A DNA stretch of 64,000 nt from Hyperoplus lanceolatus (taxonomy: Eukaryota > Chordata > Actinopteri > Uranoscopiformes > Ammodytidae). Below, piece after piece: positions 1 through 52,878 of this stretch. The DNA lies in NCBI GenBank assembly GCA_026929865.2, contig CM049404.1, positions 3,102,001 to 3,166,000 on the forward strand. Reading direction: 5' to 3'. Within the stretch, counting starts at the first letter, position 1. Each line of letters starts with the position of its first letter. The notes beneath the pieces were generated by a model. The model did no database searches, was not told the origin of the DNA, and worked only from the letters and a program-made list of their open reading frames with translations. The position numbers and the translations under genes were made by a program.

Positions 1-634
1 ATTTCATACAAATCTTAATAAGTAGTGTTTGCAATCTCATTTTAAACTGATTTGAAAGAGATGCATACAATCTACAGAATATGCTATTTTTTCATTGTTC
101 TGAATGTTGTGTATAACTCTCTTAATGGTCTTTCTGTTGATAAATTATTATATGTATACATAGTACAAATGCTTTGCCATCTATTATGTATTAAATAATG
201 TCGCTCATAAGTAGTTAGTACTACCCATATATTTTACCATAAGCTGTCTTTAACAAGAAATGCCTTATTTAAACAATCTGATGTCCATCTGTGAAAGTCA
301 TTTTAAGTAAGTTTAAGTTCACATAAGATTGCTTATTCACCTAATGTCGTCTTCTTTAGTTCAAGAAAAATTAACTAAGTTCTGGTTGTAATTGTTCATT
401 TTACCATGCATAACCCAAATTGTCCTTTGAATTTGAATACACTGTATAACCAGTAGAATTCCCACATAGTCATGTGTTGACAATGACCTAATATCATATC
501 TTATTTCTCTCCAAATGCAATATCACTAATATGCATGAATTAATTCATACATTATATGTGTGAATTTGATAATGTTATCAACGGAAATTAAATATATCTA
601 AGATTAACCCTGTATGTTTCACTATCATTTGCAG
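1..634. other. Unassigned AT-rich sequence upstream of exon
   Basis: No coding frame, terminal repeat or tandem repeat was recognised. The segment ends in a pyrimidine-containing tract and a cag acceptor at 632-634, so it most likely belongs to the intron before the zinc-ribbon exon. Confidence 0.4.
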
Positions 635-1945: not shown

Positions 1946-3290
1946 GAAGTTAGCTGCAGGCCTGCAGGGTACCAGTCAAAAGCAGTGGCTTCCGAGCCAC
2001 TGGAAAAGCACTCAGGAAACAGCGGCAGTCTGTCTCATCAATGTTCATTCACTCGGTGCATGGACATATAAAGAGATGGATTGAAACAAGGCGCTCATTC
2101 ATTCCTATGAAAGCTGCTCATTGGCGCAGGGAAGCCACAAGGAAAAATTAATGTGGAAATACCATGCGGCCCGGAAGCATGACGTAGCGGCATTATGGAC
2201 CTATCAAGAAAGAGGGCGGCAAGCGTAGCCATGACGTAGCGGACTGGTTGTGGATGTAGAATCATCCTCGTTCTGTAGCATCCGTAGCATCTAGCATTGT
2301 AAGCTAAAGGTTTAAGCAAGCACAGTTGTATTGCTTACCGACCATGGTCGTATAAGTCACTAACCCCCCGATGATTTGCTACATGTGATCGCTGTATGTG
2401 ATCTTTAAACACTCCGTTTTTGTAAAGTAATACAGTGTTGAACAAGTTCTAAACGGAGATTCCTCCAGCCATCTAAACCAAACTAGTGGGCTAGCTCTGT
2501 TTTGATAGCATGTGTTACATCTTTATAGGTCCTACAAATCCCTCGGCGACTCTAAAAACTATCAACGTCCTTCATTTTAAGTAAAGGGAAAACCTCAGAC
2601 ACAAGAAGTTAATAGAGCCGTGCACTGAGCATGGACCTATAAAGAAAGAACTGAGCCCTCTCGGAGACCGGGCCGAAAACCGAAACATTTGTTTCACTAC
2701 GACTCTGTTCAGCTGCCCACCCTTCCTCCTCCCTCGAAAACCAACTGAAAGCCGTTACAAGCCGGCTAATAAGTATGAGCCTATAATTGATATTCAGAAT
2801 GTTTTGGCGGAGACACAATCTTGTTCGCCGCTTGTATTGTGTGGATGGGGAAATCTGCCTACGGACCGCATGAAAATAAGCTCCACCCCACAGCCCCATT
2901 CATAGCATGCAGTACCAATGGATTGGCCACATGTCCATGCTGGCTGCTCGGAAAAGGCACAGTCCTGGGGGCCTGACTCGGTGGAGTTCCATGCTAACGG
3001 TCTTCTTGTGGATATACTTTGCCGACGGGCTTCCGGCTATTATCAAAAGAAAACCGAGTACTTTGTACGGTAAATATTACACTTAAAATACTTTTTAACA
3101 AGTTAAACTCCGAAAATAAAGGGCAGGAGAATCACAGCTTGACCACACTATGGCTGTATCTCGATAAACACATCGGTTCGGTCTATTTGCACTACTGTTC
3201 ATTTGCAATGAAGGAAAGTGTTTTATTCAATGCGTTTTTATTTCTGTATATTTTAATAAATAAAATGAATGTCCTTTTATGAACAAGATC
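1946..3290. other. Unassigned sequence, probably composite repeats
   Basis: The base composition is mixed and no convincing coding frame is present. Two short similar blocks (tggacctatcaagaaag near 2197 and tggacctataaagaaag near 2632) suggest repeat content. No termini were found. Confidence 0.3.
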
Positions 3291-3383
3291 TGGTCTTCAT
3301 ATCTTTTTTTCCAAATATGGGTTTTTAAAAAACGGGGGGTCGTCTTAAAATCAGGGTCGTCTTATATTCGGATCAATACGGTA
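3291..3383 (+). mobile_element. Right end of a TA-flanked DNA transposon
   Basis: The stretch contains tandem gtcgtctta motifs (ggggggtcgtcttaaaa, then gggtcgtcttatattc) and finishes at caatacgg followed by TA. This end structure, with repeated AAGACGACC units, is familiar from TA-target cut-and-paste elements. The left end was not found. Confidence 0.35.
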
Positions 3384-3477
3384 GTCATTGTTTACAACAA
3401 CATAAACACATTACCTCATCGTGATCCATACTAACTGCCGTCTCTTGTTCATTCGCTTTCTGTGAGGACACGGCATC

Positions 3478-3575
3478 TTTCAGCTCCGTGACACTGCACC
3501 AACTCATTGCAATCAGGTGTGTGTGGCCCTGACTAGTGTTAGTTGATGCAGTGTCACTAACCACTCTCACGGAGC
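3478..3575. repeat. Imperfect inverted repeat
   Basis: The left arm holds gtgacactgcaccaact and the right arm agttgatgcagtgtcac, both followed outward by matching ctccg and cggag motifs. The arms pair with one mismatch across the core and flank a short spacer. It lies at the start of the MITE fragment ending at 3757. Confidence 0.5.
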
Positions 3576-3757
3576 CGAAAAGAGTCCGGTGCCCTCACAT
3601 TTTCAACACACGGACATGCACTATTATGCTTCCTGATCATTTGACACTCACACGCCCGGCACGCGCTAGAAAACAGCTTTACGACAGCTGGCGTCGTAAA
3701 AATACTACCGCTTTTGTCCAAAGGGGCTGCCAGCGGACAAAGTTACTCGTAGTGGCT
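3569..3757 (+). mobile_element. TTAA MITE fragment, relative of 49517-49772
   Basis: From ggagccgaaaag to the end at gtagtggct, followed by TTAA (3758-3761), this matches the reverse complement of 49517-49772 over most of its length. Shared blocks include gctttacgacagctgg and cttttgtccaaagggg. The left end is replaced by unrelated sequence. Confidence 0.6.
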
Positions 3758-3858
3758 TTAAGCACAGAACACATTGAGAGAGACGGGAACACAGACACCG
3801 ACAAAACAACAGACATCCAGTTCATTTAAAGAATAAGACAGTTACGATTGTTCGGATC

Positions 3859-3990
3859 ATAGAAAGTATATTAAACTGGATGTAGCATCCGGGCTGACCT
3901 CAGTTATTCACACAGCATCCAATAATCCTGGTTTATGCTCATCGCCATCTTGTGAGATTTTTACTCCTCCTCACTGTGTTCGGAAAGCCA
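3859..3990 (-). mobile_element. hAT MITE fragment, antisense
   Basis: It starts CATAGAAAGTATATTAAAC and runs through ggatgtagcatccgggctg, the reverse complement of the right third of the 7195-7706 element. It grades into a segment resembling the complement of 7790-7815, which the pogo-like element interrupts at 3991. Confidence 0.6.
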
Positions 3991-4463
3991 TAGGGGAGAA
4001 CGGGGTAATTTGTCACATGGGTTGGATGTCACATTCGTTATATCTCGCCACCAGAGCGCGCTAGCTCTGAAATGTTGATATATAAAAGGTCCAGAATTGG
4101 GATCAGAGGTCACATAAATAGACTTCCTTGGAGTTAGACTGCTGCATTTCAGGTGAGAGGATGTTTTGTGTTTTTCATGTCAAATTCAAAATATTTTGCT
4201 TCTCAGTATTTTTCTTCTAGGCTTTTACACAATGGGTTTATAACAAAACACTTGTTACCCTCAGAAAGTGTGAAGGGTAAACTATAGTTTAGATTGTGGT
4301 TAGCAAGCTAATTAGTTGTCAGATGGTTGTTGGCCTTGATGCTAGCAAGAAATTCAAGTTGGGGTTGGTCGTCAAATTTTTTGGGGGGTTGGTTGTCACA
4401 TGTTATCTCAAGGCTGCAGCCAGAAAAGGAACCCAATAACGAAAGAAATTGTCAAGCTGTATC

Positions 4464-46625: not shown

Positions 46626-47158
46626 AAAACTCAGGTTATAAGCTGTTTTTTCTACAAAATGGATAAGCAACAAGACTTTTGTCCGGGACTGTATTGTATC
46701 GAAAAGTGACCAAATCCAGCATATACTAATGGAATCAAATTTAGATTTTCTCTGTCTATCTGAAACTTGGCTACATGAAAACTCACCAACTGCAGCACTA
46801 AACATACCAGGCTACCAAATGTATAGAAGAGATTGGGTGAAATCAGAGGGAGGCGGGGTTATGGTCTATCTGAAGGATTGTATCCAATGTAATGAATTAC
46901 TGCTGTCAAACTGTGATTTGTAATGTATTGGCTTGAATATCACTCTACCAACACAAATGTCTTGTATTCTTATTGTAATGTATCGCCCACCCTCCTCACA
47001 TAATGAGTTTTATGAAAAATTACAAAACATGCTCAAGGAATGTAATTTTAAGAAAGAGGTGATAATAATGGGAGATTTTAATGTAAATTTGGAAGATAGA
47101 TCAATTAGAAAGAACCTCAAACAATGGGCTAGCTCTCTCACAGCTGATTAAAGTGGAC

Positions 47159-48232
47159 ATGAAACAGTCTTATGCCTTCGAGCCAGTGAGGAGGGGAAGG
47201 AGCTTGCTGGTTTCAGAGCAGGAGGACGAGCCATCGGTTGCTCCAGGTGCGGAGAGGGTGGGGAACAATACCTGGTGCACATGCGGACGCTGCACTGAAA
47301 TGGCGATGGCTACAGAGTCGCTCTGTTGTCAGGAGGCTAACTTGGACCACTTGCTTCAGGGAGAGAGCTGTGTTTCATTGGGAAGGTCATTCCAGATGCT
47401 CTGCTGTGAGAGGGACATCTTGGAAGTAGCGATGCTCTCACTACGTGAAGTCCGTGCGAAGACCTTGGTGCGGCCCATCGACAGCAGGTATGCTAACTTT
47501 AGCGAGTGTTAGCTGTCTTGGCATGTAAAACGGGACGGACAACATTAATATTGAAATGTCGGTATGAAATAAACAGTTGAATTTCGCTAAGTTACTCTTA
47601 TTTAAGCACTATACATCCATCAGTTTTGTCCCGTTAAAAGTAACGTTAGTTCATAAATTGTGAAGCTAGTAGCCCTTGGCAAGCCGGTGATACTGCCGGT
47701 TTGCTAGCTAGCAGTAGTAGCGTATTTTCCGCACTATAAGCCGCACTGGACTATAAACTGCAGGTGTTATTACCATAGCCTATGAAAGAGTTAGTGCACA
47801 GAGCGGATTGTCACGATACCGGGGCTAATCAAACAATGTATAAATTACTAGTTGAATCTGTAGTTCGAACCAGACATTGTTGATGCTAAATGACAAAGTA
47901 ATGGACTGGAAAGAGACATTTATTTATTTATTGCAATAATAATATTCTAGTGTTATATGCTTAATTACCAAAAGCGGCTGCTAGTTAAGCTACCTTGTTT
48001 ATATAGTGTGTATTTTGACGTGTGTTAGATGTGGAAAAAATGATGCATGGCTACTTTTCTCAGTCTTTTCAGATTGACTGCATACAGGCAGTTTACCCTG
48101 TGGGCCAGAGGACACCTTGGCAGAAGGAACAGGATGCCTATTCCAGCCTGTGTGGTCAATTCGATCAGGACTGCCTTTCCATCTCCGGTGTACCATGGCT
48201 TTGAGTATTTCTACGATGAATTTGACATTTAA
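47159..48232 (+). CDS. P2X7 cytoplasmic-domain-like protein in Kolobok element
   Basis: There are two exons, 47159-47487 and 48073-48232, 162 codons plus stop. The donor is cag/gtatgc and the acceptor ttttcag/att; the phase fits (2 then 1). An alternative acceptor at 48063 is also in frame and adds three residues. The first ATG lies inside the left terminal repeat and leads to YAFEP. The cysteine core WCTCGRC, LCCQEA and CVSLGRSFQMLCC, then TAYRQFTLWARGHLG and IPACVVNSIR, follows the order of the zinc-binding intracellular ballast domain of P2X7 receptors and related stand-alone proteins. No membrane segment is present, so this is not a receptor. The role in the element is unknown; a zinc-dependent cofactor for transposition or a host-interaction protein is conjecture. 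The frame is intact, unlike the neighbouring transposase. Confidence 0.75.
47716..47790 (+). mobile_element. Terminal fragment of a TATAAGCCGC-type element
   Basis: The stretch cgtattttccgcactataag followed by ccgcactggactataaac is a familiar transposon end with repeated actataa units. It lies in the intron of the ballast-like gene, and only one end is present. Confidence 0.4.
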
Positions 48233-48578
48233 TCCGCCAGTGAGTATGTGATGTCACTGCATTTGTTTGCATTTATGCTAGGAGGTTTTACCAAAAGTGC
48301 AGGTAGTAGGGCTGTATAAATCTCATAACAAAATTACTAAGAACTATGAACTTGAATTAAGACTGCAGGAAATATGTTGCAAAAATCTAATAATAATAAA
48401 TCAATAACACATTTAGAATATTAATCATCATAATAAAAATTAATCAAATTATTTCGATTAATCGCGAATTAACTATGACATTAATGCGACAGCACTATAA
48501 TATATACATGACAGAAGTGTTCATTCTTTATACTTATTTATTTACATATTTAATATTCCTATCTTTTTTATTTATTTA

Positions 48579-49464
48579 TTATATACAGTGAGGGGCAAAT
48601 CTGCTTAGATGTTTTGCCACTGAATTATCTTTTGCAGGCTTTTGAACACCCATGTGCTGTGCCAGGGTGACTGTTGTGGGTTTTTTTAACTCTTGTTGTG
48701 CTGCACGAATGGTGACGGACTGGCACCTGCGGATCGCGCCAGACACAAAGTCCTTTCTGAAGGTGTAGTCTTTTGCTACCTTTCTGGGTGTTACCACATA
48801 TTGTTGTGCACCTTTAGAGTATTGCTGTTTGTACTGCAGCTGCCCCTTCTGTGTAACTGCTGTCTTCCTGTTGACGTTGTTGTTGTGGTCCATTGCAGCC
48901 ACGCGAAGACGTGCCTCGAAGCTCTGTTGGAGGAACTTCTTCCTTTTGGTCGCGTACTTTGTATACAGGGAGTGAATGCTCTCCAGATTCCCTGTATGAA
49001 TTCCTAGTGTGGTTTGTTCTAATTTCTTCAGAAGCAGCTTATCAAGAACAATTTTCTGGAGGTGTTGGAAGGCAGCAGAGCTTGGCTCGAGCCATGGCCG
49101 CATGCTCTCCTCTTCAGGGCTGTATGGAGCATGCTCACACCGTGACATCGTCTCACCACATGTCCAGTGGTGCACATTAGTGATGTGGTGAAGAATGGAG
49201 GTCCATTTCTCCTTGAGCCTGGCCATGCTTCCTCCACAGCTGCTGACGCAGTACCAGAGATGGTTGGTAATCATTTTCATCCATTCATAGAGCTCCTCAT
49301 TGTGAATCTTACCTAATCGTTTTTTCACAGATTTCACAATGTGCCAGAGGTCATACTCGTGTTTAATTGTATTGTATTGTGTCCGCAAGACCTTCTGCAC
49401 AGAGGGGTGGCAGTCAATGGCAATCACAGCTATTTGCACAACGTAATCTGCGAGCTTCATCAGT
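48579..49464 (-). pseudogene. Kolobok-type transposase, catalytic exon
   Basis: The minus strand is open for 293 codons from ATG 49460; a splice acceptor ttgtag/actg places the exon start at 49464. Motifs follow the Kolobok/THAP transposase pattern that I recall: [15 protein letters not shown] (first catalytic Asp, with Cys where Arg is usual), [16 protein letters not shown] (second Asp), a WYCVSSCGG segment, CEHAPYS, then [18 protein letters not shown] (probable Glu) and [11 protein letters not shown]. The C-terminal 30 or so codons look unlike the family and may be readthrough. The exon itself is not interrupted. It is transcribed toward the ballast-like gene. The upstream THAP exon lies about 2.5 kb away and the exons between were not found, so the gene as a whole is probably dead. 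Confidence 0.8.
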
Positions 49465-49516
49465 CTACAAATATATACAAAAATTGACGGTTCCTTGGGA
49501 CTTCTGTGAATCTTAA

Positions 49517-49772
49517 AGTGGCGACGAGGAACGTTGGCGGCTTGCTGCCCCTTTGGACAAAAGCAGTAGTATTTCTACGACACCAGCTGTCGTAAAGCTG
49601 TTTTCTAGCACGAGCAGGCCGGTGCGAGTGTCATAAGATTAGGACGCAATATAGTACATGTCCGTTCTTTATTATGTCTATGGTTGAAAGTGTGAGGGCA
49701 GGGAATCTTTTCGGCTCTGTGAGGAAAAATTAGGTTGTTTTTAAAGATATTTAAAAGTTCCTCGTAGCCGCT
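49517..49772. mobile_element. TTAA MITE inside the Kolobok element, 256 bp
   Basis: AGTGGCGACGAGGAAC (49517-49532) and the complement of AGCGGCTACGAGGAAC (49757-49772) match 14 of 16, with TTAA on both sides (49513-49516, 49773-49776). A relative lies at 3569-3757. Confidence 0.85.
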
Positions 49773-49776
49773 TTAA

Positions 49777-50168
49777 TCTTCAGTTCTTTCCATAGATTTT
49801 AAATGGGATTTAAGTCAGGTGATTGCAGCAGCTTTATTTTTTTCTTTGAAAACCTATTGGCTGTGTGTTTGGGATCATTGTCTTGCTGAAATGTCCACCC
49901 TTGTTTTATCTTCATCATTTCACTTGTTTTGTCTTTTTCCATGCCTTAATGCACCTCCCTTTCTTCATGTGTTCAATACTTTTTCTCTGTCATTTCACAT
50001 TATCACACATAACTTTATTTAACATATTTTTTGGGGGTTTCTTTTTATGTATGGATTACTTGGGTTGTTACCATTATCTGGTGAAAATGTCATGTCAATA
50101 GCACCTTTGGCAAAATATATGTAGTGAGGAAAATAGTAACATGTTGAATACTTATTTCACCCGCTGTA
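49777..50168 (-). mobile_element. Tc1/mariner-like fragment
   Basis: Antisense transposase-type wording (tgggatttaagtcaggtg, gtttgggatcattgtcttgc) resembles the region around the Tc1 DDE domain. The end gttgaatacttatttcaccc is a typical Tc1 terminus. It is degenerate and has no open frame. Confidence 0.5.
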
Positions 50169-51055
50169 CTAATTGGATGATAGGCAACCAAACAAGCTGG
50201 CTGGAGGCTGGTTCAATCATGTCTGGTTTAGGTGGATGTCCAGACAGACTAGTCCCATCCATTTTTGGAAAACTCCAGTAGAGTGATTGTGGACATGCGG
50301 CTCGGACTAAGTCGGTGTTCATTTGAATGTTTCACATGAAACTGTCATTTACTTTGGTTGTGTAGTGGATCTACAGTTGGCTTAAAACACTAAACTAACG
50401 CCCTCCTGTAGTTTAGTTTATTGGAAAATATACTGCAGATTATACTTGTCCTCAACAGAAATTGTATTGCATGTAAGCATGCAGTTTAAATAGATAGAGG
50501 TTACTATTGAAGATGGCTCTGAATTAGTCAACCACTTCCTCTGTAAGAAATTACAGAATATGCCCATCATTTTGGTTCTTTTTCTTTGGCTAGACAATTG
50601 TCAAACAAGATGTTAGAGGACACCAGATTACAGGACATTACAGCTACTCATTAAACATTTTCTTGGGGAGGACCCACGGACCCTGGGGTACAGAATGCCT
50701 CATAGGCCAATATGATTATTAGACTATAATTATAAAAGAGATAATGGTCATGTAAATTCCAGCATAACAACGCAGGTCTACATAAGGTAGTCGGCTGTTG
50801 CTGTTTTTTTTTCTACTGCGAATGTTGCCTCATTTTCACCATAAATGTGTATGCATCTTTTTAATTTCCCTACAGTATTTCTTAATTTTAATAATATGTA
50901 TATAATATGTTTTGAGGCTGTATAAAAAATATTTGTTTATGAAACCAAAAGCAAAAGTGTGCATTAGGTTTACAGGGGGGGCCAACTTCACCAAATTATT
51001 TTGTGACATGTTATAATCTTTGACAGTGATTGTAATGTCTTGTTTTTCTTTCCAG
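50169..51055. other. Unassigned interior of the Kolobok element
   Basis: This should hold the transposase exons between the THAP and catalytic parts, but I found no convincing coding segment on the minus strand. Confidence 0.3.
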
Positions 51056-51172
51056 GACAAGCTAAAATGAATTCCTTCCTCCTTCCCCCACGGCTGTCAT
51101 ATCTGCAGTCTCCAGACACAACAAGTGGTTAGCCATTGAAATGGACTACAACGTATTTTGGGATAATAAAGT
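51056..51172 (+). other. Candidate 3'-terminal exon on plus strand
   Basis: A strong acceptor tract (tgtttttctttccag, ending 51055) is followed by gacaagctaaaatga and an AATAAA signal at 51165-51170, then an A-run. A donor-like ccagtgagtatg lies just after the ballast-like stop codon (GT at 48240), so this could be its 3' UTR exon, which would place the transposase exon inside an intron on the opposite strand. Inference only. Confidence 0.3.
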
Positions 51173-51719
51173 AAAAAAAAAAACATGAGTAAAACCTTCT
51201 GACATGCGTTTGTTTTCTTTGTGTGGCATCAATCTGACGTACATTGATTCAAGAACTGTACTTTTTTCAGTGTGTTACACCAAGGTGAAATATGTGCAAG
51301 TAATCCATTAGATTTACACTATACCTTATTTAAGTAAGTTTGTAGATTTACCCAGCAGCATCCAATGATGTGATTTTTAAAATGAGTTCTGCATTAAAAC
51401 TTTTGCTTTTGGTGATTCAAGTTTTAATGCTAATACTTGTACTGTAAGATTTTGATTTCATGGTTGTAATTGTAACACTGTTATCCCTGTGATATTGTAA
51501 CTTTTAATATCGAGTCAGGTGGTCTTGCCTTGTTGAAATGAAAACCTGGAGCAACGCTGGCCCTTTTTTGGGATTATTGGAAACCACTTGCATAAGCTTT
51601 AAGTACTTTTTCCGCAAATGTTTTAGTCCAGTGCATGAATCAATGTCAGATCTTAGTTTGCCTGCTTGTGATAGAGATGGCAGTGTACATGTAAATGTTT
51701 GAGGTGTGGTGCACTTTAT

Positions 51720-52211
51720 TCAAACAAGTGGGTGGAGTCCAAAGTGATGTGGCCAATCAGCATCTCCCAGTAATGCAGGTACTACTATTGACCTATTAGA
51801 AGAGGTAACTACCTCTCTCTGCTCTGCCAGATGGGAACACCGTTGAGCCCTGTCCTTACGGCGCACAGCCATTTCTCTGCTAGTAGACTGGATCGGGCGA
51901 TCTGTACACCCAACCTTGTACGACTTGAAGTTGAACACAGACGGAGTCGCCTCGGTCTTTAGCCTGTTCGTCCAGCGAGCCACCAGTATACCTGCCTCAA
52001 ACATCCTCTCCTCCACTTAGTCCTAGTCAACAAAGTGTTCTCTACAAACTCTAGCATTACGGCTAACGGGAGGATTTTCTCTCTTCAGTGCCGCTAGCCA
52101 ACCGCGGAAAATCACTTGCCTCTTGAAAGGCAAAGAGTGAAAATGGACTGTTTTTCCTAGATTTTTTACCCTGTAAAAGTCATTACTGCATCCAGGGGCA
52201 ATACAGAAGTG
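51720..52211 (-). pseudogene. Kolobok-type transposase, THAP-domain exon
   Basis: Reading the minus strand from about 52205: CIAPGCSND gives the first cysteine pair (C-x4-C). HSLPFKRQVIFRGWLAALKR carries the conserved tryptophan region. RVCREHF gives the C-x2-H pair, and LKTEATPSVFNF corresponds to the closing AVPTIF box. That is a complete THAP zinc-binding domain, the DNA-binding module of Kolobok and P-type transposases. Two stops (TAG at 52023-52025, TAA at 52017-52019) lie between CREHFVD and the EERMFEAG segment, and no clear ATG precedes the first cysteine. The frame then stays open to 51720. Transcription would start near the right terminal repeat. Confidence 0.8.
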
Positions 52212-52878
52212 CCCCCCCCCTGCTTCTCTCTTTTGATTGCGGTTGCTGATTATCCATTGAGTCGGAGATTTTTTTTTTCAGTGCTATGTGGTTCTCTGTG
52301 TAAGTTAATGTAGGATTGTCAACCGTTCTTAACCAACCAACCACATGACGTCATGTCTTAAGCTAGCACAAGATGACGCTACACACGTTTGAAAAGGACT
52401 TTTTATTTTTCAAATTACTTTAATACAGTTGCACAGACAGTCTTAAAAGTTATAATGATGTTTACAGTGAGTATCCCTCTTGTGATTAGGCCTACTAAAT
52501 CAACTGTTTCATTTCCACTTTAAAGGTCCAACAAGAATAACCCAATCCACCAGAACTCAGATTGATTTAGTGTTCATTAACAGACTGGAGAGAACCTCAA
52601 AAATGTACAACAAGATTACTGGGCTATCAGACCACAATCTAACTCTAGTGGTCAGAAAGTTAACAAAAAAGAAATTAGAATCCCCATGAAAAACACTATT
52701 CATAGTTTTAACTGGAATTAACCTGAGTGAGGGCAGTCAAATATTCTCAAGTAAAATTCATAGTATAACTGCAGAATTTTCCTGTAGCATTAGGAGTAGG
52801 AATAGAGAGAACAGTCTTCCCTGGATAAATGCAGACATTATGATACTAATGAAAGAACGTGATCTTGCATTACAAATG

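Follow-up and report, generated by a model that had tools for sequence, protein, structure and literature searches.

The element at positions 47152-52519 of the window (the 64,000-nt stretch of Hyperoplus lanceolatus DNA analysed here, CM049404.1) is a decayed, non-autonomous transposon copy, and the ballast gene that it carries is KolX, the second gene of Kol0-group Kolobok transposons. The whole reading, according to which this decayed Kol0-group copy comes from a family combining a convergent THAP plus DDE transposase with KolX, the latter in a putative accessory role, is given a probability of about 0.93. In the available portions of Kojima & Bao 2022 (PMC9587614), the Kol0 group, with Kolobok-1_XT as its type, is described as encoding two proteins, a DDE transposase and KolX, and as duplicating TTAA; KolX is equated there with the P2X7 ballast, and P2X7 is reported to be a fusion with KolX, so that the origin of the P2X7 tail from KolX is taken from that source and not from the present data. 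Since the link between KolX and P2X7 was published in 2022, the window copy adds one more case of an arrangement that had already been described, and the original prediction, namely that the ballast domain is the second gene of a DNA transposon, is supported and already published; judged by the same portions of PMC9587614, the gain over its conclusions is small. What the host assembly (806.7 Mb, the genome searched) provides is an independent confirmation, in one genome, that the domain of the P2X7 tail belongs as a regular gene to a transposon group under selection and is not a stray capture.

The element, its insertion site and its damage

The element had been predicted to lie within one pair of TIRs and TTAA duplications and to restore the host LINE frame on excision, and both claims were borne out. 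An inverted-repeat comparison in the window gave TIRs of 17 bp with 1 mismatch, and the inverted arms (TTAA plus TIR, 21 nt) are 95% complementary (Table 1). Once the two flanks are joined, the LINE frame reads through; the endonuclease model PF14529 aligns to the left flank over profile positions 3-42 and to the joined flanks over 62-115, both below the curated cut-off. The TTAA duplication is found at both ends of the window copy and of the related copies L008 and L009, and at the right end only of L010. The ends read AG...CT, in agreement with the 5'-RR...YY-3' termini that, together with C/DxxH between the second D and E, figure as Kolobok rules in the available text of PMC9587614, and unlike piggyBac. 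The likeness to Kolobok Kol0 thus comprises the transposase and KolX genes, the relation to the P2X7 ballast, the TTAA duplication and the termini, the ballast-type second gene being recognised from its sequence matches (PF20478 and P2X7 chains in the PDB). On published descriptions of these features, the window element is provisionally placed in Kol0 as a new family of a known kind.

Table 1. Features of the element and its insertion site (positions in the window)
Feature	Position	Strand	Remarks
Left TTAA target-site duplication	47148..47151		Sequence reading
Left TIR, 17 bp, 1 mismatch to right TIR	47152..47168	+	Inverted-repeat search; identical in L008, L009, L010
KolX exon 1 as read here	47159..47487	+	ATG from TIR; cysteines of WCTCGRC, LCC, GESC
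Junction of 291-bp internal deletion	47169..47170		Window element 18/19 against L009 element 18 and 310; 2-bp microhomology
KolX intron, GT...AG	47488..48072	+	Identical splice-site words in L008, L009, L010
KolX exon 2 (AYRQF ... IPACVVNSIRTAFP)	48073..48229	+	Stop 48230-48232
Transposase remnant	48585..49463	-	Keeps residues 329-621 out of the 622 codons in the L009 exon
Junction of ~1.59-kb internal deletion	49460..49463		L009 element 2559-4148; 4-bp microhomology TCAG
Nested MITE-like insert, TTAA-flanked, inverted ends	49513..49776		Common to L009, 98.9%
THAP-domain ORF	52023..52277	-	PF05485 E 5e-10; stop right after HFVD
Right TIR	52503..52519	-	Inverted-repeat search
Right TTAA target-site duplication	52520..52523		Sequence reading

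The window copy departs from Kol0 in its two internal deletions and in the stops of its THAP frame. The shorter deletion took the left-end leader and KolX codons 1-18, which leaves the TIR joined to codon 19. As for the predicted minus-strand THAP+DDE transposase, the THAP domain stood, but an intact transposase did not, what is left being a remnant with stops: the THAP frame is broken at 52017-52025, whereas the ORF stays open further in L009. The L009 transposase contains, by eye, GDCRYDSPGH, TDCHP, DLWH and LES, with C/DxxH present between the second D and E, and we take its three acidic residues (DDD/E) to be assigned accordingly; the window remnant has lost GDCRYDSPGH and retains only the last three motifs, and with them the second D. 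In Pfam, no model exceeded its cut-off for the L009-type transposase, the best being MULE (E 0.058).

KolX and its kinship with the P2X7 ballast

The spliced plus-strand product in the window has 162 aa. In a Pfam search it matches PF20478 (P2RX7_C) with 62 bits (cut-off 23.5; E 9e-17), which is its sole match above cut-off, with no P2X channel domain, and four PDB sequences, every one of them P2X7, match it at E<=1, the best with E 1.1e-5. A two-exon gene related to the P2X7 intracellular zinc domain, as originally proposed, is therefore confirmed. Its native beginning within the left TIR is not: L008, L009 and L010 have 291 further bases at their left ends and a native start at element position 254, which rules out a native start in the TIR and makes the one seen in the window a deletion artefact. 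The proposed cysteine core held for WCTCGRC and LCC and failed for the later CC (FQMLCC), which lies opposite no P2X7 cysteine; in the alignment with P2X7, GESC and IPAC supply the other zinc cysteines.

Like the P2X7 ballast (PF20478; PDB 6u9v and others), KolX has seven zinc cysteines, AYR and IR..FP. All seven cysteines of L009 KolX recur in both P2X7 rows of the alignment, which also has four KolX rows; L036 is the sole KolX row with one of them missing. The positions of rat P2X7 R546 and R578 are kept in L009 KolX (R578 is P in L037), but L, V and S stand at those of H547, R574 and K583, so that the set of GDP contacts is incomplete in KolX. In the accessible text of Rump et al. (PMC7016195), ZCD proteins beyond deuterostomes are described with R546 and R578 alone, R574/K583 being lost outside mammals. 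Nanor and the stand-alone ZCD proteins (PTHR36981), likened here by description, are likewise short and consist of the zinc-cysteine domain only, although, unlike KolX, they are not tied to transposons in that text; Nanor is considered a likely domesticated KolX in the corresponding portion of Kojima & Bao (PMC9587614).

What might KolX do?

The family encodes two convergent genes, and its transposase would cut and paste the element at TTAA, while KolX, a zinc-cysteine ballast protein of ~177 aa, may aid the transposase by binding DNA, RNA or the transposase itself. A small zinc-fold cofactor of transposition is most likely what KolX, putatively, is. An alternative that we regard as possible, with odds well below even, is that KolX serves selfish regulation outside the transposition complex, limiting or timing transposition or shielding the element from host silencing. 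Its being a separate convergent transcription unit suits this, and the conserved zinc core and the R546- and R578-like arginines could, to judge from the residues, permit ligand binding; in addition, L008 and L010 each have in their left-end leader a palindromic TGACGTCA, presumably a CRE motif, for which reason KolX may be regulated separately from the transposase. A cofactor nonetheless fits a convergent second gene equally well. The stronger form of the cofactor reading, slightly more doubtful still, would make KolX an obligate RNA- or DNA-binding partner of THAP-type Kolobok transposases, with the ballast fold as an ancestral zinc/phosphate-binding core and RG-rich N-terminal arms in some lineages. 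In families B and C, an RG-rich stretch precedes the core of KolX, which would be compatible with nucleic-acid binding; if KolX were an obligate cofactor, the nucleotide-binding tail of P2X7 would have been inherited from a transposition factor.

Related copies and other KolX families

Seven strong right-end matches were found in the host genome, of which six keep KolX and the seventh is left-truncated. No full-length copy with the same TIRs and without KolX appeared among these seven, in a search that scored only the best candidates and could miss rarer forms; C4:12443094, considered as such a copy, was rejected, as it begins at L009 element position 2255 and has no left TIR in 3.5 kb upstream. 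Nor was a separate target duplication seen around the KolX exons, which lie inside a single TIR pair, and in L008, L009 and L010 both genes stand between one TIR pair. Within the reach of these searches, the claim of a second gene of a DNA transposon has thus survived both refutations set for it.

Transposons pick up host exons, and P2X7 is the best-known bearer of the domain: could the ballast exons then have been captured from P2X7 or a nanor-like host gene and travel as a chance passenger? This we consider very improbable. The host genome holds 66 ballast-domain matches, 30 of them retrieved, and at 13 of the 17 loci examined outside the window's family (L032-L048) KolX and a match to a Kolobok-type transposase stand in convergent orientation, which rules out a capture confined to the window copy and advises caution, since ballast-domain matches can be transposon genes. 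Seven of the 13 match the L009 transposase directly and six only a fragment of that of L037, and several are near-identical copies; the examined flank of the other four lacks a transposase match, with a convergent THAP ORF at one of them (L040). A single capture is unlikely also because KolX of other families is only 29-33% identical to that of the window's family in alignment, too spread. Moreover, the intron of window-family (family A) KolX lies inside the ballast domain, just before AYRQF, whereas the human P2X7 ballast is encoded by a single exon according to the available text of PMC7016195. Among viral contigs, 100 stretches fitting a pattern encoded no relative, and a tree of the KolX and P2X7 core (10 rows, midpoint root for drawing only, with a long-branch warning) is mute on direction.

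Purifying selection, which also argues against a passenger, was found between families (dN/dS 0.20 over 176 codons, Fisher p 1.35e-14, for the single divergent pair with a finite estimate), but not within families B, D and E, where none of the pairs computed differs from neutral at p<0.05 (a computation that excludes sets F/G and H and the pairs L041-L047, L042-L045, L042-L047 and L045-L047); the gene of the window copy may therefore make nothing. That it was instead domesticated by the host, restarting from the TIR ATG under LINE transcription, is likewise very improbable: the 291-bp deletion does leave an in-frame ATG and an open gene of 162 codons, but an in-frame join has odds of 1/3 by chance, the left-end leader is lost, and dN/dS against L010 is 1.44, from 1 synonymous and 5 nonsynonymous changes.

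KolX and its match to the P2X7 ballast domain

The plus-strand gene of the window element, originally predicted to match the intracellular zinc domain (ballast) of P2X7, is KolX, the second gene of Kol0-group Kolobok transposons. The predicted match holds, since the product reaches 62 bits against PF20478 P2RX7_C (E 9e-17, cut-off 23.5) and P2X7 chains account for all four matches at E<=1 in a PDB sequence search (best E 1.1e-5). When four KolX proteins from the host genome are aligned with two PDB P2X7 tails, C57, C60, C71, C72, C86 and C151 are invariant (numbering of L009, a fuller relative of the window copy) and C55 is absent in one row only, that of locus L036. The later CC (FQMLCC), also assigned to the P2X7-like cysteine core, has no P2X7 cysteine opposite it in the PDB alignment. 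Among the GDP contacts of rat P2X7 listed by Rump et al. (PMC7016195), namely R546, H547, R574, R578 and K583, the L009 KolX retains the R546 and R578 positions, whereas H547, R574 and K583 are replaced by L, V and S; the R578 position is P in the KolX of locus L037.

According to Kojima & Bao 2022 (PMC9587614), the Kol0 group codes for a transposase and KolX, the P2X7 ballast is matched by KolX, P2X7 originated when a P2X4-like gene fused with KolX, Nanor is likely a domesticated KolX, and some piggyBac families have a KolX-like C-terminus. The central idea of the original prediction had thus already been published. In the literature searched, KolX is named only in that paper, and P2X7 and Kolobok are mentioned together only there and in one review. 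The direction from KolX to P2X7 is taken from Kojima & Bao, the tree made here being silent on it.

Structure and decay of the window copy

The element is flanked by TTAA on both sides and ends in AGTGGACATGAAACAGT and ACTGTTTCATTTCCACT, with one mismatch between them. Splicing the flanks via a single TTAA regenerates an open frame, reading SQLIKGPTRITQSTRTQIDLVFIN, and PF14529 (endonuclease-reverse transcriptase) is matched, under its curated cut-off, by the left flank (profile 3-42, E 1e-5) and by the joined flanks (profile 62-115, E 0.0032). Together, these data bear out that the element interrupts a LINE whose frame is restored on excision. The transposon contains a MITE-like insert that has inverted ends, is bordered by TTAA at either end and is shared with L009 (98.9%); a second copy of it (78%) is found near the left end of the window.

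Coordinates of the features discussed
Feature	Sequence	Position	Strand	Remark
Kolobok element	window	47152-52519		
KolX exons	window	47159-47487, 48073-48229	+	product of 162 residues
MITE-like insert	window	49513-49776		
Second copy of the insert	window	3566-3762		
49-bp motif duplicate	window	51087-51136	minus	
Left-end leader	L008 element	18-253		absent in window copy
KolX region with RG-rich stretch	L049	3941-4348	minus	
KolX region with RG-rich stretch	L037	1468-2319	minus	

Three relatives share both terminal inverted repeats (TIRs): L008 (5508 bp), L009 (7297 bp) and L010 (6390 bp). Their left ends are 291 bp longer and their KolX begins MSEDEAERFFEAIPVNPMAYAFEP, while the window copy has its TIR fused to KolX codon 19; the proposed start inside the left TIR must therefore be discarded, its ATG being a deletion by-product. 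A second deletion (~1.59 kb, with TCAG microhomology) cost the transposase exon its 5' portion. Of the predicted minus-strand THAP+DDE transposase, a THAP frame and DDE residues 329-621 of 622 are present, but the former is broken by stops (it is open further in L009, THAP E 3.6e-13) and the motif GDCRYDSPGH is gone. Well away from the DDE exon stands a 49-bp duplicate of the transposase's first catalytic motif (PLVVSGDCRYDSRG); L008, L009 and L010 contain this duplicate as well.

L008 and L009, which agree at 99.9% over 3296 bp, occupy different flanks, and TTAA borders both ends of each copy; recent movement of the family is therefore probable. To the right of L009, where the element ends at locus position 1605, lies a TTAA-containing tandem repeat, TTAAAGGTCTCTCTCC..., and the TTAA duplication of this copy may accordingly lie within a minisatellite. 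The L008 leader carries palindromic TGACGTCA and a GCCGCCATATTG block, which we take to be possible CRE and YY1 sites.

Retention of KolX and selection

A DNA search of the host genome with the window copy's KolX exon 1 region gave seven places. Searching with the right end, where only the best candidates are scored, gave 13 matches at 12 places, seven of them strong, and KolX exons accompany six of these seven (the window, C21, C12 twice, C10 at its start, and C17, counted as one copy although the exon lies ~11 kb from the right end and the intervening stretch is known only in part). The seventh, on C4, corresponds to L009 only from element position 2255 onwards, and the 3.5 kb upstream contain no left TIR, which makes it a left-truncated copy rather than an alternative full-length form; no full-length copy devoid of the ballast gene was found among the strong matches. 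At the five weak loci (L059-L063), only element ends matched within 3 kb, L062 being MITE-like (105 bp of left end and 39 bp of right end). An insert of ~1.5 kb splits the KolX codons of the C17 copy (L017), and the divergent C20 copy (L013, 68% at the DNA level) carries a stop in KolX.

Within the window copy's family, pairwise dN/dS values, taken without significance test, are 0.58 for the window versus L009 (3 synonymous, 6 nonsynonymous), 1.44 versus L010 (1 and 5), 0.50 for L010 versus L008 or L009, whose KolX are identical, and 0.26 to 0.34 for L011 pairs (103 codons, exon 1). Purifying selection is found between divergent members: L032-L037 gives 0.20 (176 codons, p 1.35e-14), while dS is saturated in L033-L036 and L034-L036, both with dN ~0.16 (p 3e-37 and 2e-38), and likewise in L039-L047, with dN 0.15 (39 codons, p 7e-18). 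It is not seen within families B, D and E, where the 12 pairs computed range from 0.19 to 1.49 and none has p<0.05. Such values mark a gene that is maintained as long as its lineage is mobile and drifts once a copy is dead.

Transposase pairing and KolX diversity

A protein search of the host genome for KolX gave 66 matches among 123 scored candidates, and loci were fetched for 30, the remaining 36 being weaker. A Kolobok-type transposase match lies in the ~1.5-kb flank at 13 of the 17 loci L032-L048, convergent with KolX in all 13; it is a direct match to the L009 transposase in L036, L037, L039, L041, L042, L046 and L047, and a match only to a fragment of L037's transposase in L032, L033, L034, L035, L038 and L048. 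Since several are near-identical copies of one another, they represent about six families. The other four are L040, L043, L044 and L045, of which L040 has a THAP ORF (E 2.8e-14) convergent with its KolX exon.

Element structure, insertion, KolX homology, transposase pairing and selection are shown by these data. As for the mechanism, the THAP-DDE protein would cut and paste the element at TTAA, with KolX as a putative small zinc-fold cofactor of transposition; the main rival to this cofactor reading is that KolX acts as a regulator.

An RG-rich stretch lies upstream of the ballast in KolX of families B and C, a hint of nucleic-acid binding. Such RGG-box-like stretches precede or are fused to KolX in L049, whose ORF gave nothing above cut-off against Pfam, and in L037. 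L044, L046 and exon-2-only protein matches represent further divergent KolX families, among which the piggyBac-borne KolX-like genes reported in Kojima & Bao (PMC9587614) may be found; some of these families recur on several chromosomes with the same 50-56% identity.
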